From contig JAIQZU010000021.1 of the NCBI GenBank assembly GCA_021776915.1, positions 1 through 64,000 of the forward strand: 64,000 nt of DNA, given 5' to 3'. The stretch comes from Candidatus Scalindua sp. (GTDB lineage Bacteria > Planctomycetota > Brocadiia > Brocadiales > Scalinduaceae). A program made the translations under genes and the position numbers. Below, piece after piece: positions 15,251-44,663 of the stretch (position 1 is its first letter; each line of letters opens with the position of its first letter). The notes under the pieces were generated by a model. It saw only the letters and a program-made list of their open reading frames with translations. It had not been told where the DNA came from and searched no databases.

Positions 15251-18200
15251 TTATAATTGCTTTCTTGCTTCTTCCGGCAAGGCTGACACAGCCATTAATA
15301 GGTCATCGTTATCAGGTTTGGCTTTGACAAATGAGGTGAAAAGGTGGATGGCTTCTGTATATATGTCTTTTGTTATTTCTATAATACTTTCATCTGGGAT
15401 ATTGTTGGTAGTTATTACGGCTTCCAAATTTGATATCAATGTGACAAGCGTCCAGTAGTCGAGCGGTATTCGTTTCATCAAATCATTACCCAGATATGTA
15501 AGATAATTACGTATAACGTGGAGTCTGTCTTCTGACAATAAATCTCTCCTTCCCTTCTTTACTAAAGAGGAGGAGTGGGTTATCATGTTAGCAATTTCCT
15601 TAGATAGTTCGGCAACAGCAACGCGCCCTATTGCCATAATGGAAGCAGCCGTCCTCATTCCAATCTTTCGTTCCTGAGAAATCCTGATGATATCATCAAA
15701 AATCATGCAGATATTGTCTTCAAGCAGGCTATTGATCTTTTCTAAATCCCAGCGCTCGTTCTTCAGATTCTGCACCCATTCCAGATAAGATACGAAAACA
15801 CCTCCCAGGTTTGTACTGATATCTGGTGTTATAAAGGTGCCTTTTCTCGTTACAATTCTATCGCCTTCAGGGGTAACAGGCCCATTTGCGCCTTCCACTA
15901 TAACTTTGGCCTTTACGCTATACGCATTCCTGTCTATAGCATTCTCAAGCGCAGCAAGAACGAGGAAATCAACATCCAGTGCGAAAATGCCATCGTTTGT
16001 TATGTCTCTTCCACCCTCAAATCCCTTTAAGAAGCCTGCGCCAGTAGTTTCCACGTGTTCCATAACGGCATCTATATTCAGGCCATTGGGGTTATATATA
16101 CCGCCACTGGCATCCGTAATAGCTACGACTCTTACGCCTGCATCATACAGGAATTTTGCAGGCGGCCTGCCGACATTGCCAAACCCCTGTATGGCTGCTG
16201 TGGCGCCTTTAAGGTTTATATTTTTATGACTGGCAGCTTTTTTCAGGGCAATAAATACTCCACGCCCTGTTGATTCAGCCCTGCCGAGCGAACCTCCCTT
16301 ATCGTCCGGTTTGCCGGTAACCACAGCAAGCGCCCGGCATTTTGCTTCCGGGTGTTTTTTCAGTACCTCCATACATTTATCAAGATATGGAGTTTCCATA
16401 GGAAAAGAAGGTTGTTTGTGAAGTGGACGGAAATCATTAATGATTTTATTTGTCAATTCCGTATCATCCGTCAACCAGTCAGACAAATCTTCTTTCTCGA
16501 CTGACGTCTTCAGGTATTCATCTACAAACCAGGCCATCTTTGTAGCATTCGTGTTAACATCCGGCGCAGGGATATCAAGATGTGGCCCAATTGCGTTTCT
16601 ATGCTTCAATTCACGGCTGTATTCCCTGATTATGGATGCGTCTTTTCGATCAAGCAGGTTTCTTGGATTTGCTATAATACCACCCTTTGAACCGCCGTAT
16701 GGGATTCCGGCAATGGCGCATTTCCATGTCATCCAGATAGCAAGAGCCCTGACTTCATCAAGTGATACCTCAGGATGTTCTCTGAATCCTCCTTTGGCAG
16801 GGCCACGGGCTGAATTGTGGTGTACTCGATAAGAAATTATTTTACCTTCTGAAAGCCGGATCGCCTCTATCCGCTCAGGGGTAAGTAATTTCTTTTTCAG
16901 AAAAAGAGGAAGCCTTAAGATGTCGGCAACAACAGCAAATTGACTTTCTGCCACCTCGAGCGGACTTGGCATGGCAACGGCGTGCTCCCGTATCTTTGTA
17001 TATTCTTCAAGAGTAACATCGGGTACGGAAAACAATTGACTTACTCTTTCGAATTCTCCGATCTCTTTTTTGTAGTTAATAATATTCTTTGCAATGTCAT
17101 TTTCAATTTTGAGGAATTTCTCCAACTCTCCTATATTTGCGGCATTAAGATTTATTTTCTCCTTTACAGGTTCTTTTGGTTTCAGGTGTGTTTTTGCAGG
17201 CAGGTCATCTAAATGGTTAAGCGCGGTCAACTCCTCACCGGCAAGAAATTTTAAACCGGTTTCTCCCATTGTTGAAAGGTACGTCCTTGCAGGAGGTGGT
17301 TTTGCACCAAGCCTTCTTTGCGCTGCAGTAGCGCTATGAAGACCAAGTATAATCTTGGACCCTGCCTCATGGGCAAATACAAGGTCTAAAATCTGATTCG
17401 TGCCATGGCAAAACGTTTCGTCCTGGTACTTCCCTGCAATTCCATTGAAGATGATGGTTTTTGCGTCCCGCATCTTTTTCTTTATCAGGACGAGTGTGCC
17501 TGGGCCAATGTCGTATGCCTTCAATTTTGCAAATCTCCCCTTAATTTTGTTGACCTTAACGGTTTCAGGATTGAGTCCCGTCAGTTTTGCCATAATGTGG
17601 TCGACGGGAAGTATTATGTCGACACCATATCCTTTAGCCAGTTCCAGCACCATGGTTGCATTGCGAAGCGCCTGTTTTTGCAAATCCGGGTCTTCTTCAA
17701 GAATGCAGTTATCTACGTCATATCCCTGTACCTTGAGGAATGGAAATGCAATACCGCCAATGATAATCAGTTTATCAACCTTTCCATAAACAATAAGGTT
17801 CTTCATTGTCTCAACCTTGGCTGAGACGTTGGCCCCTCCGATAAAGGCAACTACAGGTTTATGAGGATACCTCATAAAACTATCAAGTGCGGTTAACTCC
17901 TGGGTAAGCAGGAATCCGGCTACCTTTGGGCCTGAAATAAGTCTTGTTACTGGTCCGAGTGATGCATGCTGGCCCATATTAGATGTTACCGGATCGGCAT
18001 TTACATAGACGTCACAATTAGTAGTGCTATGAAGTTGCTTTGCAAATTCCATAACTTCATTATCATCCTCTGAGGTTTCACCACTGCGAAACATGACATT
18101 TTCCAATAGGAAAACACCATCCCCGCTAATGATAGATTTTGTTTTTTCACCAATACAGTCATCAGTTATGGTAACCTCTCTATCTTCTGGTAGAATTTTC

Positions 18201-18556
18201 TTGTCTCTCAATACCTCTGTCAGCCTTTTTGCCACGGGTTTTAAACTGAAGCCATGGTGGACTTCTCCATCATTTTGAACTCCTACTGAGGTTTTTCTAT
18301 CCCTGAAGAAATTCTCCCTTACACCGTTGTGGGATACAATGATTATCGTCCTCGCTCCCTGCTTCAGGATGTGACGAATGTCCATGACTGTAGCCCTGAT
18401 ACGCCTGTCATCAACTATCCTGGTATCCCAGACGATATCGTAATTTACCCTGAGGAAAACCCTCTTGCCATCTAAGGCTGACTTATGAAGGTTGCGTATG
18501 GGCGTTTTGTTAGCATAAGGATACCACTCAAAACCCACTTCAGTCTGTTTAGTCAT
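15251..18556 (-). CDS. fusion: degenerate phosphoglycerate kinase + helix-hairpin-helix + glutamate dehydrogenase
   Basis: About 1100 residues. An in-frame GTG lies at 18577, but GGAG is best spaced (9 bases) from the ATG at 18556, which I prefer. Residue numbers count from the GTG. Residues 1-458 are PGK-like (KRVFLRVNYDIVW, SHNG, LLENVMF, GGANVSAKV, IIGGIAFPF, FNGIAGK, final STMGETGLKFLAGEEL). Key PGK positions are changed: DFN of the N-lobe reads NYD, ENVRF reads ENVMF, AHRAH is lost, GGAKVS reads GGANVS, and GGGDT is lost. Residues 475-535 look like a ComEA-type helix-hairpin-helix (INLNAANIGELEKFLKI). Residues 538-1015 are a complete Glu/Leu/Phe/Val dehydrogenase: GPAKGGFREHP, active lysine in PYGGSKGG, catalytic Asp in IPAPDVNT. 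About 95 extra residues follow. Likely an active glutamate dehydrogenase with a regulatory or repurposed PGK module. Confidence 0.88.
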   Translation of the reverse strand: MTKQTEVGFEWYPYANKTPIRNLHKSALDGKRVFLRVNYDIVWDTRIVDDRRIRATVMDIRHILKQGARTIIIVSHNGVRENFFRDRKTSVGVQNDGEVHHGFSLKPVAKRLTEVLRDKKILPEDREVTITDDCIGEKTKSIISGDGVFLLENVMFRSGETSEDDNEVMEFAKQLHSTTNCDVYVNADPVTSNMGQHASLGPVTRLISGPKVAGFLLTQELTALDSFMRYPHKPVVAFIGGANVSAKVETMKNLIVYGKVDKLIIIGGIAFPFLKVQGYDVDNCILEEDPDLQKQALRNATMVLELAKGYGVDIILPVDHIMAKLTGLNPETVKVNKIKGRFAKLKAYDIGPGTLVLIKKKMRDAKTIIFNGIAGKYQDETFCHGTNQILDLVFAHEAGSKIILGLHSATAAQRRLGAKPPPARTYLSTMGETGLKFLAGEELTALNHLDDLPAKTHLKPKEPVKEKINLNAANIGELEKFLKIENDIAKNIINYKKEIGEFERVSQLFSVPDVTLEEYTKIREHAVAMPSPLEVAESQFAVVADILRLPLFLKKKLLTPERIEAIRLSEGKIISYRVHHNSARGPAKGGFREHPEVSLDEVRALAIWMTWKCAIAGIPYGGSKGGIIANPRNLLDRKDASIIREYSRELKHRNAIGPHLDIPAPDVNTNATKMAWFVDEYLKTSVEKEDLSDWLTDDTELTNKIINDFRPLHKQPSFPMETPYLDKCMEVLKKHPEAKCRALAVVTGKPDDKGGSLGRAESTGRGVFIALKKAASHKNINLKGATAAIQGFGNVGRPPAKFLYDAGVRVVAITDASGGIYNPNGLNIDAVMEHVETTGAGFLKGFEGGRDITNDGIFALDVDFLVLAALENAIDRNAYSVKAKVIVEGANGPVTPEGDRIVTRKGTFITPDISTNLGGVFVSYLEWVQNLKNERWDLEKINSLLEDNICMIFDDIIRISQERKIGMRTAASIMAIGRVAVAELSKEIANMITHSSSLVKKGRRDLLSEDRLHVIRNYLTYLGNDLMKRIPLDYWTLVTLISNLEAVITTNNIPDESIIEITKDIYTEAIHLFTSFVKAKPDNDDLLMAVSALPEEARKQL

Positions 18557-18776
18557 TTTCATATTCTCCAAAGGCACATTTTAACAAATTCAGGGTCGTA
18601 ATGAAAAGGATGTTTAATATTATACCCATAAAACCCTTTGCCAAACAAAATAGTACCTTGTCGCATCCGCTTTACTTTGCATATTATACGGCATATTATA
18701 AAACACTGGTTTTATATCGCCTGACTTTATATTATATTGTACTGATTATTTAATAATTTTATATCGGATAATAAAT

Positions 18777-37774: not shown

Positions 37775-38692
37775 ATGGCAATCCCTGATTATCAAACTGT
37801 AATGCTCCCTTTATTAGAACACCTTGGAGATAAAGAGGAGAAAGCTACAAGAGAAACGCTTGACGCATTAGCTGGCAGATTCAGTTTAACAGAAGAAGAG
37901 AAAAAGGAGTTATTACCTAGCGGCCAGCAACCAATTTTTTCAAATAGAGTGGGTTGGGCAAAAGTATACTTGAAAAAAGCGGGGTTAATTGAATCAGCGA
38001 GAAGAGGTTATTACAAAATTACCCAAAAAGGCTTAAATACTCTTAGTAAAAAACCTTCGAAAATTGACAATGAATATTTAAAACAATTTTCAGAGTTTTT
38101 GGATTTCACCAAAGGCAGGAGTGAAAAAGGGGAAGAGGAAAAAGATATCGAATTATGTAATATCACAAACGAAAAGACACCTGAAGAATACCTGGAATAT
38201 GGATTTCAAAAGATTCATAAGGATTTGTCTCAGGACATTCTTGACAGAATAAAAGGTTGTTCTCCAGCTTTTTTTGAACGATTGGTAATAGAATTATTAC
38301 TAAAAATGGGTTACGGTGGATCACGAAAAGAGGCGGGACAAACGATCGGACGAAGTGGAGATGAAGGCATAGATGGAATAATTAAGGAGGATCGATTAGG
38401 CCTCGATGTGATCTATATCCAGGCTAAAAAATGGGAAAATACTGTGGGAAGACCAGAGATTCAAAAATTTGCCGGAGCGTTGCAGGGACAAAGAGCAAAG
38501 AAAGGAATATTTATAACAACATCTAATTTCACAAAGGAAGCACAGGAATATGCTTCCTTAATTGAAAACAAGATAGTATTAATCGATGGTGAACAACTAT
38601 CAAGCTATATGATAGATTTAAATATTGGAGTAAGCAAAGTCGCATCGTATGAAATAAAAAGAATAGATTCTGATTATTTTACAGAAGAATAA
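37775..38692 (+). CDS. mrr: Mrr-family type IV restriction endonuclease
   Basis: 305 residues. N-terminal winged-helix domain (IPDYQTVMLPLLEHLGD ... GQQPIFSNRVGWAKVYLKKAGLIESARRGYYKIT) and C-terminal Mrr catalytic domain from about 165: FERLVIELLLKMGYGG, the catalytic Asp in DEGIDGII and QAKKW forming the D...QxK site of the PD-(D/E)XK fold. It cuts modified DNA. Full length and apparently intact. It sits alone without a methyltransferase, as expected for type IV enzymes. Confidence 0.93.
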   Translation: MAIPDYQTVMLPLLEHLGDKEEKATRETLDALAGRFSLTEEEKKELLPSGQQPIFSNRVGWAKVYLKKAGLIESARRGYYKITQKGLNTLSKKPSKIDNEYLKQFSEFLDFTKGRSEKGEEEKDIELCNITNEKTPEEYLEYGFQKIHKDLSQDILDRIKGCSPAFFERLVIELLLKMGYGGSRKEAGQTIGRSGDEGIDGIIKEDRLGLDVIYIQAKKWENTVGRPEIQKFAGALQGQRAKKGIFITTSNFTKEAQEYASLIENKIVLIDGEQLSSYMIDLNIGVSKVASYEIKRIDSDYFTEE

Positions 38693-38830: not shown

Positions 38831-41065
38831 ATGAATATTCTAGACAATGTAACAGAATCACAAAAAGAGGCAATCACACATATAGACGGTCCTTTACTCG
38901 TAATTGCGGGAGCCGGTAGCGGTAAGACAAGGGTGATCACACGCAGGGTAGGATATCTTGTTGAACAAGGGACTGCCCCGGCAAATATCCTGTCCATAAC
39001 CTTTACCAATAAAGCCGCTAATGAGATGAAGGAGAGGCTGGGTGAATTTCTGGATCTGAGGGGAATGTGGGTCTCAACGTTTCACGCCATGTGTTCAAGA
39101 ATCCTGCGAAGCGAGATCGAGCAGATGGGTTTTACCAGGAATTTCAGCATATATGATACCGCAGACCAGAAGAAGTGTATTACGGCTGTGATGAATGAAC
39201 TGAATCTGGACACTACAAACTGGCGGCCTGGTTCCGTAGCGGCGTCAATAAGTAACGCAAAGAATGAGGTGCTGTCCGCTGAGGAATTTGCTGAGTATAA
39301 ATCAGGCTATTATAACGACGTTGTTTCAAAGGTATATACAAAGTATCAGAAATATCTTGAGGCAAATAATGCGCTGGATTTTGATGACCTGCTTTGCAAG
39401 GTTGTGCATCTGTTTAAAAATTTCCCGGAGGTACTTGAAAAATATCAGGACAAATTCAGATATATACTCATAGATGAGTATCAGGACACAAATCACGCAC
39501 AGTACTCAATCACTCAACTGCTGGCGCAGAGGTTCGGAAATATCTGTGCTACCGGAGACCCGGATCAGTCTATCTATGGATGGCGCGGCGCCAATATACG
39601 GAACATACTCAATTTCGAAAAAGATTATCCTGAGACAAAGACTGTCCGGCTTGAACAAAACTATCGTTCGACGAAGAACATTCTTCACGTAGCCTCTGAG
39701 GTAATCAAAAACAATCAATCAAGGAAACCGAAATCCCTCTGGACGGAGAATGACGAAGGAAACAGAGTCAGGGTGATTCACTGCGAGGACGAGTATATTG
39801 AATCAAGGGAGATTGCTGCAAACATTTCTGAATTTATTAAAAATGGAAACACGTACTCTGATATGGCCGTATTTTACCGTACAAACGCACAGTCACGTGT
39901 ACTGGAAGGCTGCCTGCTTAAGGAAGGAATACCTTACTCAATAGTGGGTAGCGTCGAATTCTTCAAGAGAAAAGAGATAAAGGACATCCTTTCCTATCTC
40001 AAACTCTGTGCCAATCCCGATGATGATTTATCTTTTGAAAGAATTGTAAACGTTCCTCCGAGAGGCGTCGGGCCGACGACTATAAGACGATTAAGAGAGT
40101 GGGCGGCGCTGCACAATACGAATCTTTTAGAGGCAATCTCCCGTGTTCAGGAGATTTCTGAAATCAAGGCAAAGGGTGCCGGCTCTGTGAAAGGATTCTG
40201 GAATATTATTTCCGGATTATATAAGCTCCCAACTTATCCGGTGATGGAATTTATAAAACAGGTTATCGGGAAGACCGGATACCTGGATTACCTGGAACAA
40301 TCTTATGAGGGTGATAGTGAAGATAGACTGGAAAATGTTGAGGAGCTGGTAAATGCAGCCAGTGAGTATGACAATTCAAATCCGGACGGTTCTCTCCAGG
40401 GCTTCCTGGAAGAGGTTGCATTAATCTCAGACCTTGACAAATGGGACGACCAGACAGACACAGTTACCCTTATGACCCTGCATGCCGCAAAAGGGCTGGA
40501 GTTTCCGGTTGTCTTCATAGCCGGACTTGAGGAGGGGTTATTGCCGCATTCACAATCAAAGGATTCAGACGATGATATTGAAGAAGAGCGCCGTCTATGT
40601 TATGTAGGCATTACCAGAGCGCAGAAAGAACTGTTCCTGATTCATACCAGATACAGGACAAAGTTCGGCCAGAAGGCTCCATGTATTCCTTCCAGATTTC
40701 TGAATGAAATTCCGGAAGACTTTACAGAGGAAATTGATAAAACAAACTATAGTTCTTACTCATCTGAACTGCAAACCGCTAATGCAGATAGAAACGCAGA
40801 GAATCTGGAATCTGGCGATTACCAACATTATCATGATGAAGAAAATGGCCTCAATATGATTGACGAATTTCGGCATGAAGAATCTCAGGACAGCAGTAAT
40901 CTGGTTCCGGGAGATATTGTAAGTCATGAATTCTTTGGCCGCGGGAGAATTACAAAAATTATCCCATCAACAAATACGGCATTTGTTGATTTCAGTAAAG
41001 TCGGAATGAAAAAACTGGTACTGGAATATGCAAATTTAGAAAAGATAGAAGATTATTGCAGATGA
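38831..41065 (+). CDS. pcrA: UvrD/PcrA-type DNA helicase
   Basis: 744 residues, superfamily 1A. Motif I GAGSGKTRVITRR, Ia SITFTNKAANEMKERL, motif II LIDEYQDTNHAQ, III ATGDPDQSIYGWRGA, IV VRLEQNYRSTKNIL, V TLHAAKGLEFPVVFIAG and VI EERRLCYVGITRAQK. The C-terminal tail ends in a Tudor-like domain, GDIVSHEFFGRGRITKI, as in PcrA, where it contacts RNA polymerase. It unwinds DNA in repair and at stalled forks. It stands alone. Confidence 0.95.
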   Translation: MNILDNVTESQKEAITHIDGPLLVIAGAGSGKTRVITRRVGYLVEQGTAPANILSITFTNKAANEMKERLGEFLDLRGMWVSTFHAMCSRILRSEIEQMGFTRNFSIYDTADQKKCITAVMNELNLDTTNWRPGSVAASISNAKNEVLSAEEFAEYKSGYYNDVVSKVYTKYQKYLEANNALDFDDLLCKVVHLFKNFPEVLEKYQDKFRYILIDEYQDTNHAQYSITQLLAQRFGNICATGDPDQSIYGWRGANIRNILNFEKDYPETKTVRLEQNYRSTKNILHVASEVIKNNQSRKPKSLWTENDEGNRVRVIHCEDEYIESREIAANISEFIKNGNTYSDMAVFYRTNAQSRVLEGCLLKEGIPYSIVGSVEFFKRKEIKDILSYLKLCANPDDDLSFERIVNVPPRGVGPTTIRRLREWAALHNTNLLEAISRVQEISEIKAKGAGSVKGFWNIISGLYKLPTYPVMEFIKQVIGKTGYLDYLEQSYEGDSEDRLENVEELVNAASEYDNSNPDGSLQGFLEEVALISDLDKWDDQTDTVTLMTLHAAKGLEFPVVFIAGLEEGLLPHSQSKDSDDDIEEERRLCYVGITRAQKELFLIHTRYRTKFGQKAPCIPSRFLNEIPEDFTEEIDKTNYSSYSSELQTANADRNAENLESGDYQHYHDEENGLNMIDEFRHEESQDSSNLVPGDIVSHEFFGRGRITKIIPSTNTAFVDFSKVGMKKLVLEYANLEKIEDYCR

Positions 41066-41255
41066 GCCCCCCTTGTTCCCAAGCTCCAGCTTGGGAACAT
41101 TGATGTGCTAAAAGCTCTGCTTTGATTAAAGAATGAGATCACGGTATCAAATAATAGATGATAACAGTGTTTATTTCATAACATCAACTATTGTAGAGTG
41201 AATACCGGTTTTTACAAAGAAGGAATATTTTGATATTATTGTTCAGTCTTTAAGG

Positions 41256-41608: not shown

Positions 41609-41801
41609 ATAACTGCAACCAGGATTTGGTTTCTTTAAAAGCCAAAAACCAAACCGGTTTTAGTATAATAGAGAATTAACAAAAGCAGAGCTTTTGAGAA
41701 AAGTGCGTTCCCAAGCTTGAGCTTGGGAACGACGGATCTAGGCGGAAGCTTAGGAACGAGACAACCAGGCTGGAGCCTGGAAACGAAGAAAGGAGTAAAA
41801 A

Positions 41802-42971
41802 TTGGATAAGATATATCTTGATCATGTGTCATGTACGCCAACATATCCGTCTGTTATAGAGGCTATGGTTGATTCTATGAAGAACTGTTACGGCAATCCG
41901 TCAAACCTGCATCATTTCGGACAAACTGCGAAGAAAGCAGTTGATACTGCCAGGGGTGAAGTGGCGTCACTCATAGGAGCAAAGGCCGAAGAAATAATAT
42001 TTACATCAAGTGGAAGCGAGGCGAACAATTTTGCCATTAAGGGCCTTACAATGGCAAACCAGAAAAAAGGTAAACACATTATTACGTCTGAGATAGAACA
42101 TTTTTCTGTGCTTAACCCATTAAAAAGACTTGAAAAGACGGGTTTTGAGGTTACGCGTGTACCGGTTGATAAATACGGCATGATAGACCCTGGCGAGATT
42201 GCCAAGGCAATTAAACCCGAGACAATTCTCGTTTCCATTATGCATGCAAACAGTGAGATAGGTACTATTGAACCGATAGAAGAGATCGGAAAGATAGTTA
42301 AAGAACAGGGCATTATCTTTCATGTTGATGCCGTGGCGTCAGCAGGTTGTATCCCGGTAGACGTAAACAAAATGATGGCGGATGCCTTAAGCCTGGCCAG
42401 TAACCAGTTTTACGGTCCGCCCGGCGCTGGAGCGCTGTACTTGAGAGAGAAAACAAGAATAGTGCCGTTTATTGAGGGAGGCATACAGGAAGGTGGGCGT
42501 CGGGCAGGTACGGAAAACATACCCGGTATCGTGGGTATGGGAAAGGCCGCTGAATTGGCAAAGAATGAGCTGGAAACACGCAGAAAGAAAATTGAACCGC
42601 TACGCGACAGGCTGTTAAACGGTATAATGAATACAGTCGATCATATTTATCTGAACGGCCATCCGGAAAAAAGATTGCCTGGCAATATCAACATAAGCAT
42701 AGAATATGTTGAGGGTGAGTCAATACTTTTGTTTTTAGACATGAAGGGGATAGCAGTATCTTCCGGTTCGGCATGCACATCAAGATCCTTGAAGTCGTCA
42801 CACGTCTTGAGTGCAATCGGGGTAGATGATGCAGTGGCTCAGGGGTCGATACTCTTCAGTCTGGGAATAGATAATTCTGAAGAGCACATTGAATATGTCT
42901 TAGAGACACTCCCGCCTATAATAAAAAGGCTGAGAGAAATGTCTCCGTTATATGAGGACAGTCAGGCTTGA
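41802..42971 (+). CDS. NifS/IscS-like protein lacking the PLP lysine
   Basis: 389 residues, TTG start with AAAGGAG six bases upstream. The cysteine desulfurase framework is clear: IYLDHVSCTPTYPSVIEAM, FTSSGSEANNFAIKG, TSEIEHFSVLNPLKRLE, MHANSEIGTIEPI, FHVDAVASAG, GGGxxEGGRRAGTENIPGIVG type block, and the persulfide loop SSGSACTSRSLKSSHVL with Cys325. But the PLP site SGHKxxGPKG reads ASNQFYGPPG: His-Lys is replaced by Asn201-Gln202. DATQS also reads DAVAS and DNNATT reads DHVSCT. Classical desulfurase activity therefore seems unlikely; a persulfide carrier or different chemistry is possible. No iscU or rrf2 gene adjoins. The last 154 bases are duplicated at 44432. Confidence 0.85.
   Translation: MDKIYLDHVSCTPTYPSVIEAMVDSMKNCYGNPSNLHHFGQTAKKAVDTARGEVASLIGAKAEEIIFTSSGSEANNFAIKGLTMANQKKGKHIITSEIEHFSVLNPLKRLEKTGFEVTRVPVDKYGMIDPGEIAKAIKPETILVSIMHANSEIGTIEPIEEIGKIVKEQGIIFHVDAVASAGCIPVDVNKMMADALSLASNQFYGPPGAGALYLREKTRIVPFIEGGIQEGGRRAGTENIPGIVGMGKAAELAKNELETRRKKIEPLRDRLLNGIMNTVDHIYLNGHPEKRLPGNINISIEYVEGESILLFLDMKGIAVSSGSACTSRSLKSSHVLSAIGVDDAVAQGSILFSLGIDNSEEHIEYVLETLPPIIKRLREMSPLYEDSQA
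42814..42967 (+). repeat. nifS-like 3' end, native copy of a direct repeat
   Basis: 154 bases also present at 44432-44585, about 97 percent identical; the pair flanks the DUF4143 ATPase gene. Confidence 0.95.
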
Positions 42972-43093: not shown

Positions 43094-44293
43094 CTATACC
43101 AATTGCGATAATAATGTCTTTACCGGAACAATCTTTGGAGTGGCACCACAAAAACAATCAGCGTCAATATAGCCCAGAGAAAAAACAGCCTGAAATGCAT
43201 GAGGCGCTTTTATCTTTTTTTGAAAGTAAATCAAGCTTTTACTTACAGACCTTTGTTGGTCAAGCTTAACTTCAACTAAAAACCATGGTTTCTGGTTTTT
43301 AACAACTAAGAAGTCAACCTCTCGTTTATCCTTGTCACGAAGAAAATACAGATTGTAATCACCAAACCCGTTATCAATCCACCAATGGACGGCCTTCAAC
43401 AAATGCGATGCAACAAAGTTTTCCATTTTTGCCCCATTATCATCTATATTAGACCAATCCCAAAGATATATTTTAGGCTGCTTAAGTAATGATCTTGATA
43501 TATTGCTTGACCATGGCTGGATTGTAAAACAGTAATATAAAGATTCCAGGATTTTTATCCATCGGCGTATGGTATCTACTGATACCCTTACTCTTAGAGC
43601 AAGGTTAGAATAATTTGTTAATTGCCCTGTTTGATTTCTCATGATTTCAGCTAAAAGCTCAATCTGATATATTTCCTGTACACGCGTAGTATCTCGTATG
43701 TCTTCATAAAACAACTGTTGTTTTCGCAAATTCTTCCATCGATTTGAAAATCTCACGTTTGTCTTCAAGAACGGTTCAGGAAAACCTCCAAATTTATATA
43801 ACGAATCGAATCTTTTATTGTCTATTGATAATGGAGTATGTATTTCTTCATCAGAAAACTCTGGTTCTACAATTTCTCTGATTGAAAGAGGATGCAGACG
43901 ATGAAGAAAATAGCGGCCCATCAAACTATCTCCACCCCGTTTAAAAACGTCCAACCTTGAACTTCCCGTTACGATGATCTTTGTGTTATCACCATAAACA
44001 TCAAAGAAGCCTTTTAGAAATTCTTTCCATTTTGAATATTTATGAATCTCGTCGAAAATAACGATCTTATATTTTTCCTGTAATTTATTAAGGCCTATTT
44101 CTTCTCCAATCTTACCGGGTCCACCAATGATTAATGTACGGTGATCCTGGTTGTCCCAGTTAAAATATTCATATTCAGACACTAATTCTTTACATAAAGT
44201 TGTTTTACCAACTTGCCTTGGACCTACTACAAAAATCATCTGTCTGAATTGTTCTATATGTTTATGCAGAATTGAAGAATATGATCTTTTCAT
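43094..44293 (-). CDS. AAA ATPase with DUF4143 domain
   Basis: 399 residues: AAA_14 ATPase with Walker A VGPRQVGKTTL, Walker B IVIFDEIHKYSKWK and sensor ITGSSRLDVF, then an interdomain helical part and a C-terminal DUF4143 region with a nuclease-like REVDFLVVKNQKPWFLVEVK (D...ExK) motif. Such proteins are widespread, mobile and of uncertain role; links to toxin-antitoxin-like systems and to defence have been suggested. It is encoded opposite to the nifS-like gene and lies between that gene's 3' end and a copy of it. Confidence 0.9.
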   Translation of the reverse strand: MKRSYSSILHKHIEQFRQMIFVVGPRQVGKTTLCKELVSEYEYFNWDNQDHRTLIIGGPGKIGEEIGLNKLQEKYKIVIFDEIHKYSKWKEFLKGFFDVYGDNTKIIVTGSSRLDVFKRGGDSLMGRYFLHRLHPLSIREIVEPEFSDEEIHTPLSIDNKRFDSLYKFGGFPEPFLKTNVRFSNRWKNLRKQQLFYEDIRDTTRVQEIYQIELLAEIMRNQTGQLTNYSNLALRVRVSVDTIRRWIKILESLYYCFTIQPWSSNISRSLLKQPKIYLWDWSNIDDNGAKMENFVASHLLKAVHWWIDNGFGDYNLYFLRDKDKREVDFLVVKNQKPWFLVEVKLDQQRSVSKSLIYFQKKIKAPHAFQAVFSLGYIDADCFCGATPKIVPVKTLLSQLV

Positions 44294-44431
44294 TGTGAGT
44301 CCAATATTACAGAAAACATGAAGAAAGGCAAGACCATTTTACGATTACCACTATATTGGTTGCGACTAATGTACGATTTTACTAAATTAGGTCGGATTAG
44401 TATTTATAACACACAGATTCTCATTGAAGTA

Positions 44432-44589
44432 CAATCGGGGTAGATGATGCGGTGGCTCAGGGGTCGATACTCTTCAGTCTGGGAATAGATAATTCTGAAG
44501 AGCACATTGAATATGTCTTAGAGACACTCCATCCTATAATAAAAAGGCTGAGAGAAATGTCTCCGTTATATGAGGACAGTCAGGCCTGA
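44432..44589 (+). repeat. extra copy of the nifS-like 3' end
   Basis: CAATCGGGGTAGATGATGC through GAGGACAGTCAGGC with four base differences in 154. Frame and stop codon are kept; changes are two synonymous and one Pro to His codon. No start codon. The remainder of 44294-44431 and 44590-44640 shows no gene. Confidence 0.95.
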
Positions 44590-44663
44590 ATTCCAATATG
44601 TTAACATAAATCTGATGGGGAACATTTATTGGATTTTAGATTTCAGAATTCGGATTTCAGATT

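Follow-up and report, generated by a model that had tools for sequence, protein, structure and literature searches.

Loss of the catalytic lysine and retention of the persulfide cysteine in an IscS/NifS-like protein of Candidatus Scalindua and other bacteria, with genomic links to iscU and tusA

We characterized a gene for an IscS/NifS-like protein in a 64,000-nucleotide stretch of DNA from Candidatus Scalindua sp. (contig JAIQZU010000021.1, positions 1 to 64,000; hereafter, the window). As an initial annotation made from the sequence alone had described, the gene is intact and preceded by a good ribosome-binding site. The features of the locus are as follows.

38831–41065, + strand: gene for a UvrD/PcrA-type helicase, a conserved upstream neighbour in Scalindua and several Brocadiaceae
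41789–41795, + strand: ribosome-binding site AAAGGAG, 6 nt ahead of the TTG (read directly)
41802–42971, + strand: gene for the Lys-less IscS/NifS-like protein, 389 amino acids, TTG start, open reading frame open and intact
42336–42338, + strand: codon for Ala179 (GCG), at the position of a conserved Gln (by alignment)
42402–42407, + strand: codons for Asn201-Gln202, at the positions of the conserved His and pyridoxal phosphate (PLP) Lys (by alignment)
42774–42776, + strand: codon for Cys325 (TGC), the persulfide/ligand Cys, retained in SGSACTS (by alignment)
42852–42854, + strand: codon for Leu351 (CTC), at the position of the conserved substrate-carboxylate Arg (by alignment; role of the Arg from PMC3343029)

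The surroundings show several further features. An Mrr-type restriction endonuclease gene (37775–38692, +) lies directly 5′ of the helicase gene and was not seen at that site at loci L011 and L016. Palindromic repeats (GTTCCCAAGCTnnAGCTTGGGAAC; 41075–41098 and 41707–41730) lie close to each end of the 736-bp gap that precedes the Lys-less gene. Past a downstream gene for a DUF4143 AAA ATPase (43094–44293, −) lies a 165-bp stretch that repeats the 3′ end of the Lys-less gene (44428–44592, +; 96% identical). In another Scalindua this gene tail is duplicated as well, with greater divergence (L027:3536–3826). Elsewhere in the window (15251–18577, −), a single 1,108-aa open reading frame appears, as judged by eye, to fuse phosphoglycerate kinase to glutamate dehydrogenase through a helix-hairpin segment.

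The protein belongs to aminotransferase class V (Pfam PF00266, 275.7 bits), and its best NCBIfam model was NifS (TIGR03402), with a score of 515.1 bits that falls slightly short of the equivalog cut-off (530.75 bits). It carries the SSGSACTS loop with Cys325, a motif type that identifies class I cysteine desulfurases (PMC8300815), and its AlphaFold model (pLDDT 85.6) matched IscS structures, including that of Archaeoglobus fulgidus IscS. The nearest solved sequence was a cysteine desulfurase (PDB 9WEP, 437 bits), which retains the His-Lys pair and the Gln, unlike the window protein.

The extent of the active-site changes emerged when 28 Lys-less proteins from bacteria were compared with 13 canonical ones. 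The His-Lys pair, present in all 13 canonical rows, is Asn-Gln in the window protein (Asn201, AAC, 42402–42404; Gln202, CAG, 42405–42407), which bears out the replacement proposed in the initial annotation; the motif on which that proposal was based, ASNQFYGPPG, was read correctly, although it spans 42396–42425 and the range given, 42400–42430, was off by a few bases. Its assignments of the Lys position to residue 202 and of the retained persulfide Cys to residue 325 were exact, and Ala for the Gln of DATQS (Ala179) and an N-terminal DHVSCT instead of DNNATT were likewise found. Our analysis adds a further loss, that of the Arg of IRFSLGR (13/13 canonical rows, 0/28 Lys-less bacterial rows; Leu351 in the window protein), together with A. 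fulgidus IscS as a known relative and IscU and TusA as partners. Among the cysteine desulfurases examined in PMC3343029, the surroundings of PLP include strictly conserved Thr, His, Asp, Ser, His and Lys residues, and the carboxylate is presumed to be contacted by Asn, Gln and Arg. Changed in the window protein are the Ser (to Ala199), the second His, the Lys, the Gln and the Arg, the last two both substrate-carboxylate residues (Ala179 and Leu351); His100, Asp176, Asn150 and Ser72 (in place of Thr) are retained. Across the clade, Cys325 and the SGSAC loop are kept, as are Asp176, His100 and Asn150.

Homologues share 80–92% identity with the window protein in Candidatus Scalindua and related records, in keeping with a Scalindua-like anammox bacterium as the source of the window, and approximately 62–66% in Brocadiaceae. 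Nearly all Scalindua carry Asn-Gln (Ser-Gln in four), as do all sampled Brocadiaceae, and the pair also occurs in Aminicenantes; Dehalococcoidales have Asn-Met, one acidobacterium has Asn-Pro, and Candidatus Geothermocultor has His-Gln and retains the other Gln. Between clades, the Lys position is occupied variously by Gln, Met, Pro, Thr, Ser or Ala. The Lys-less state occurs in at least four phyla, and in the tree all 28 Lys-less rows from bacteria group in a single clade (support 99/96), near which Lys-bearing relatives are thinly sampled; the nearest row outside it is the Lys-bearing PDB 9WEP. Pairwise dN/dS among the Scalindua copies is 0.06–0.10, indicating strongly purifying selection. 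The view that these substitutions mark a subfamily and not random damage is thus upheld by phylum spread, clade support and selection. In the best tree, A. fulgidus IscS stands apart from the bacterial clade, with long branches; holding the two together gave a p-AU of 0.174, and A. fulgidus IscS joined the clade at 48/92 once long-branched rows were removed.

The collected homologues share the loss of the Lys, and their neighbours outside Scalinduaceae are mostly a stand-alone iscU and usually tusA. A co-directional iscU of this type lies downstream of the Lys-less gene in Brocadiaceae, another Brocadiales family, Dehalococcoidales, Aminicenantes, Acidobacteria and Geothermocultor, often after a gap of 24–70 bp and usually followed by tusA. 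Among distinct sequences with sufficient downstream DNA (a count that includes close species and non-independent events), IscU follows the Lys-less gene at 27/57 loci overall and at 27/31 outside Scalinduaceae, and TusA is present in 24. The 30 loci that have no downstream IscU belong to Scalinduaceae (26) and Brocadiaceae (four, whose iscU lies at a greater distance or in another part of the genome). For 17 canonical copies, IscU lies downstream in one (E. coli IscS), TusA in none and NifU upstream in eight. The IscU copies retain the three Cys and the Asp of the cluster site. In two Brocadiaceae, a Uma2-family gene sits between the Lys-less gene and iscU (L053:7242–7790, by Pfam; L058:5379–5927, by sequence similarity).

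A search for iscU in the window found none. The window genome (G000) keeps all three genes unlinked, with a stand-alone iscU (G000:C72:8577–8960) and an operon-type tusA (G000:C46; 61% identical to the TusA of G034) on separate contigs. Several Brocadiaceae that carry the operon have the UvrD helicase gene in this upstream position too, so the Scalindua locus seems to correspond to theirs, with iscU and tusA since lost or relocated. SUF was absent from the window genome and from 25/26 tested relatives, in a search whose control was positive in 14/14 control genomes; the one exception (G019) has no Lys-less match, and no tested relative with the Lys-less gene has SUF.

The window genome also encodes four more complete NifS-like copies (43–57% identity) and a more distant, SufS-like one (L006), which retains His-Lys. 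His-Lys is also retained in L003, L004 and L005, of which L004 adjoins NifU. The remaining copy (L002; G000:C83:59389–60549) is a second Lys-less NifS paralogue, with His-Thr; its type has Thr, Ser, Pro or Ala at the Lys position in relatives, and its neighbours are thioredoxin and CcdA-like genes in Scalindua and iscU in G018. In L005 (G000:C7:27501–28625), a canonical NifS domain follows a molybdopterin oxidoreductase-like domain in a single frame of approximately 1,150 aa, and similar long frames occur in G007, G028, G034, G036, G042 and G047.

The lost desulfurase residues, together with the retained Cys and an IscU scaffold partner, suggest that an IscS/IscU set of anammox bacteria and several other phyla does not obtain its sulfur from cysteine by way of the Lys-less protein. 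We consider it probable, from comparative analysis, that the protein is an IscS devoid of desulfurase activity, which docks IscU and makes Cys325 available as a ligand of the cluster or a relay of sulfur, the sulfur itself arriving as sulfide or through TusA. The protein would form the usual IscS dimer, perhaps still holding PLP in a weak, non-covalent structural role, and is predicted neither to bind nor to desulfurate L-cysteine. It would dock the stand-alone IscU encoded on C72, where Cys325, on its mobile loop, may serve as the fourth ligand of the IscU [2Fe-2S] cluster under construction, as in A. fulgidus IscS–IscU; alternatively, Cys325 could relay sulfur supplied from elsewhere. The three genes are non-adjacent in Scalindua, and the partnership proposed there therefore rests on the relatives; similarly, as the placement of A. 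fulgidus IscS in the clade is not firm, its mechanism is carried over by analogy. Sulfide or a TusA persulfide, the latter from the product of the tusA on C46, would be the sulfur source, and the TusA gene in the operon of the relatives suggests a carrier-fed supply. In E. coli, sulfur flows from IscS to TusA (PMC2854127), so the direction of TusA transfer here cannot be assumed. We propose only tentatively the wider scheme in which anammox and several other bacteria possess a dedicated IscS–IscU–TusA set with a non-desulfurase IscS, receiving sulfur as sulfide or TusA persulfide in a cysteine-independent route to Fe–S clusters; if true, its TusA-persulfide version would run TusA opposite to the E. 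coli direction.

Other explanations can be weighed against this docking role. One is a regulatory or scaffolding role, in which the protein pairs with a canonical NifS of the same cell in mixed dimers and tunes that NifS instead of serving IscU directly; the retained fold and the canonical paralogues in the genome are compatible with such a role, but the gene of the relatives adjoins iscU and not canonical nifS, and identity to the canonical copies is just 43–48%, which makes mixed dimers unlikely. Another is an enzyme that uses PLP on a different substrate with no Schiff-base Lys. PLP enzymes that lack the Lys exist, and His100, Asp176, Ser/Thr72 and Thr237 around PLP are retained; nevertheless, the carboxylate-binding Gln and Arg are gone as well, the Lys position is variable and the gene context is that of Fe–S assembly, and we regard this enzyme as quite improbable. 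A desulfurase still active through another PLP Lys, which the initial annotation had named as a finding that would overturn its reading, would fit the retained fold and Cys325. However, the clade alignment contains no conserved pocket Lys, and the only clade-wide conserved Lys, K112, aligns with an Arg in E. coli IscS, making a moved Schiff base unlikely; with the conserved His, Gln and Arg also lost, such activity is very hard to credit. Sequencing error, likewise raised at the outset, or a decaying paralogue, for which the 165-bp tail copy might be taken as a sign, is ruled out by the identical residues in many independent assemblies, the intact open reading frames and the low dN/dS.

The preferred reading, a desulfurase-dead IscS serving IscU, bears on how Fe–S assembly of the IscS–IscU type is understood, as this is described, a few archaeal cases aside, as beginning with a cysteine desulfurase. 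Lys-less IscS proteins are already known from archaea; the bacterial variant appears to be new with respect to the open-licence papers searched, in which we found nothing relevant on anammox cysteine desulfurases and no account of the bacterial clade, its occurrence in several phyla, the accompanying loss of the Arg or the iscS–iscU–tusA operon. Annotations of the Lys-less gene as "cysteine desulfurase" would misstate both its role and its sulfur source. The occurrence of such an IscS with an iscU and tusA operon across bacterial phyla, and in SUF-less anammox cells, suggests that A. fulgidus IscS is more than an isolated archaeal exception.

The closest known parallel is A. fulgidus IscS2 (PDB 4EB5, 4EB7 and 4HVK), which shares with the window protein the IscS fold, Asn for His, Ala for Gln, Leu for Arg, the loss of the PLP Lys, the retained Cys loop and an IscU partner. 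The A. fulgidus query, which matched PDB 4EB5 over all 382 residues, reads DATAS and SSNDIYGPKG, with Leu at the Arg position; it differs in being archaeal and in having Asp at the Lys position, where the window protein has Gln. TusA-like genes presumably lie near the iscS genes of A. fulgidus too. The title of PDB 4R5F refers to a D199K mutant of this IscS. A. fulgidus IscS is reported to have no desulfurase activity because the Lys is Asp, and to contribute one of its Cys residues as a ligand of the cluster on IscU; IscS1 of Methanosarcina acetivorans, like the window protein, has no catalytic Lys (PMC7585200). The minimal ISC system (MIS, MisS–MisU) and canonical IscS–IscU likewise pair an IscS-type with an IscU-type gene, but published descriptions of MIS and ISC include an active cysteine desulfurase (PMC12192291, PMC10653786), whereas desulfurase activity is predicted to be lost in the window protein and the operon of its relatives includes TusA.
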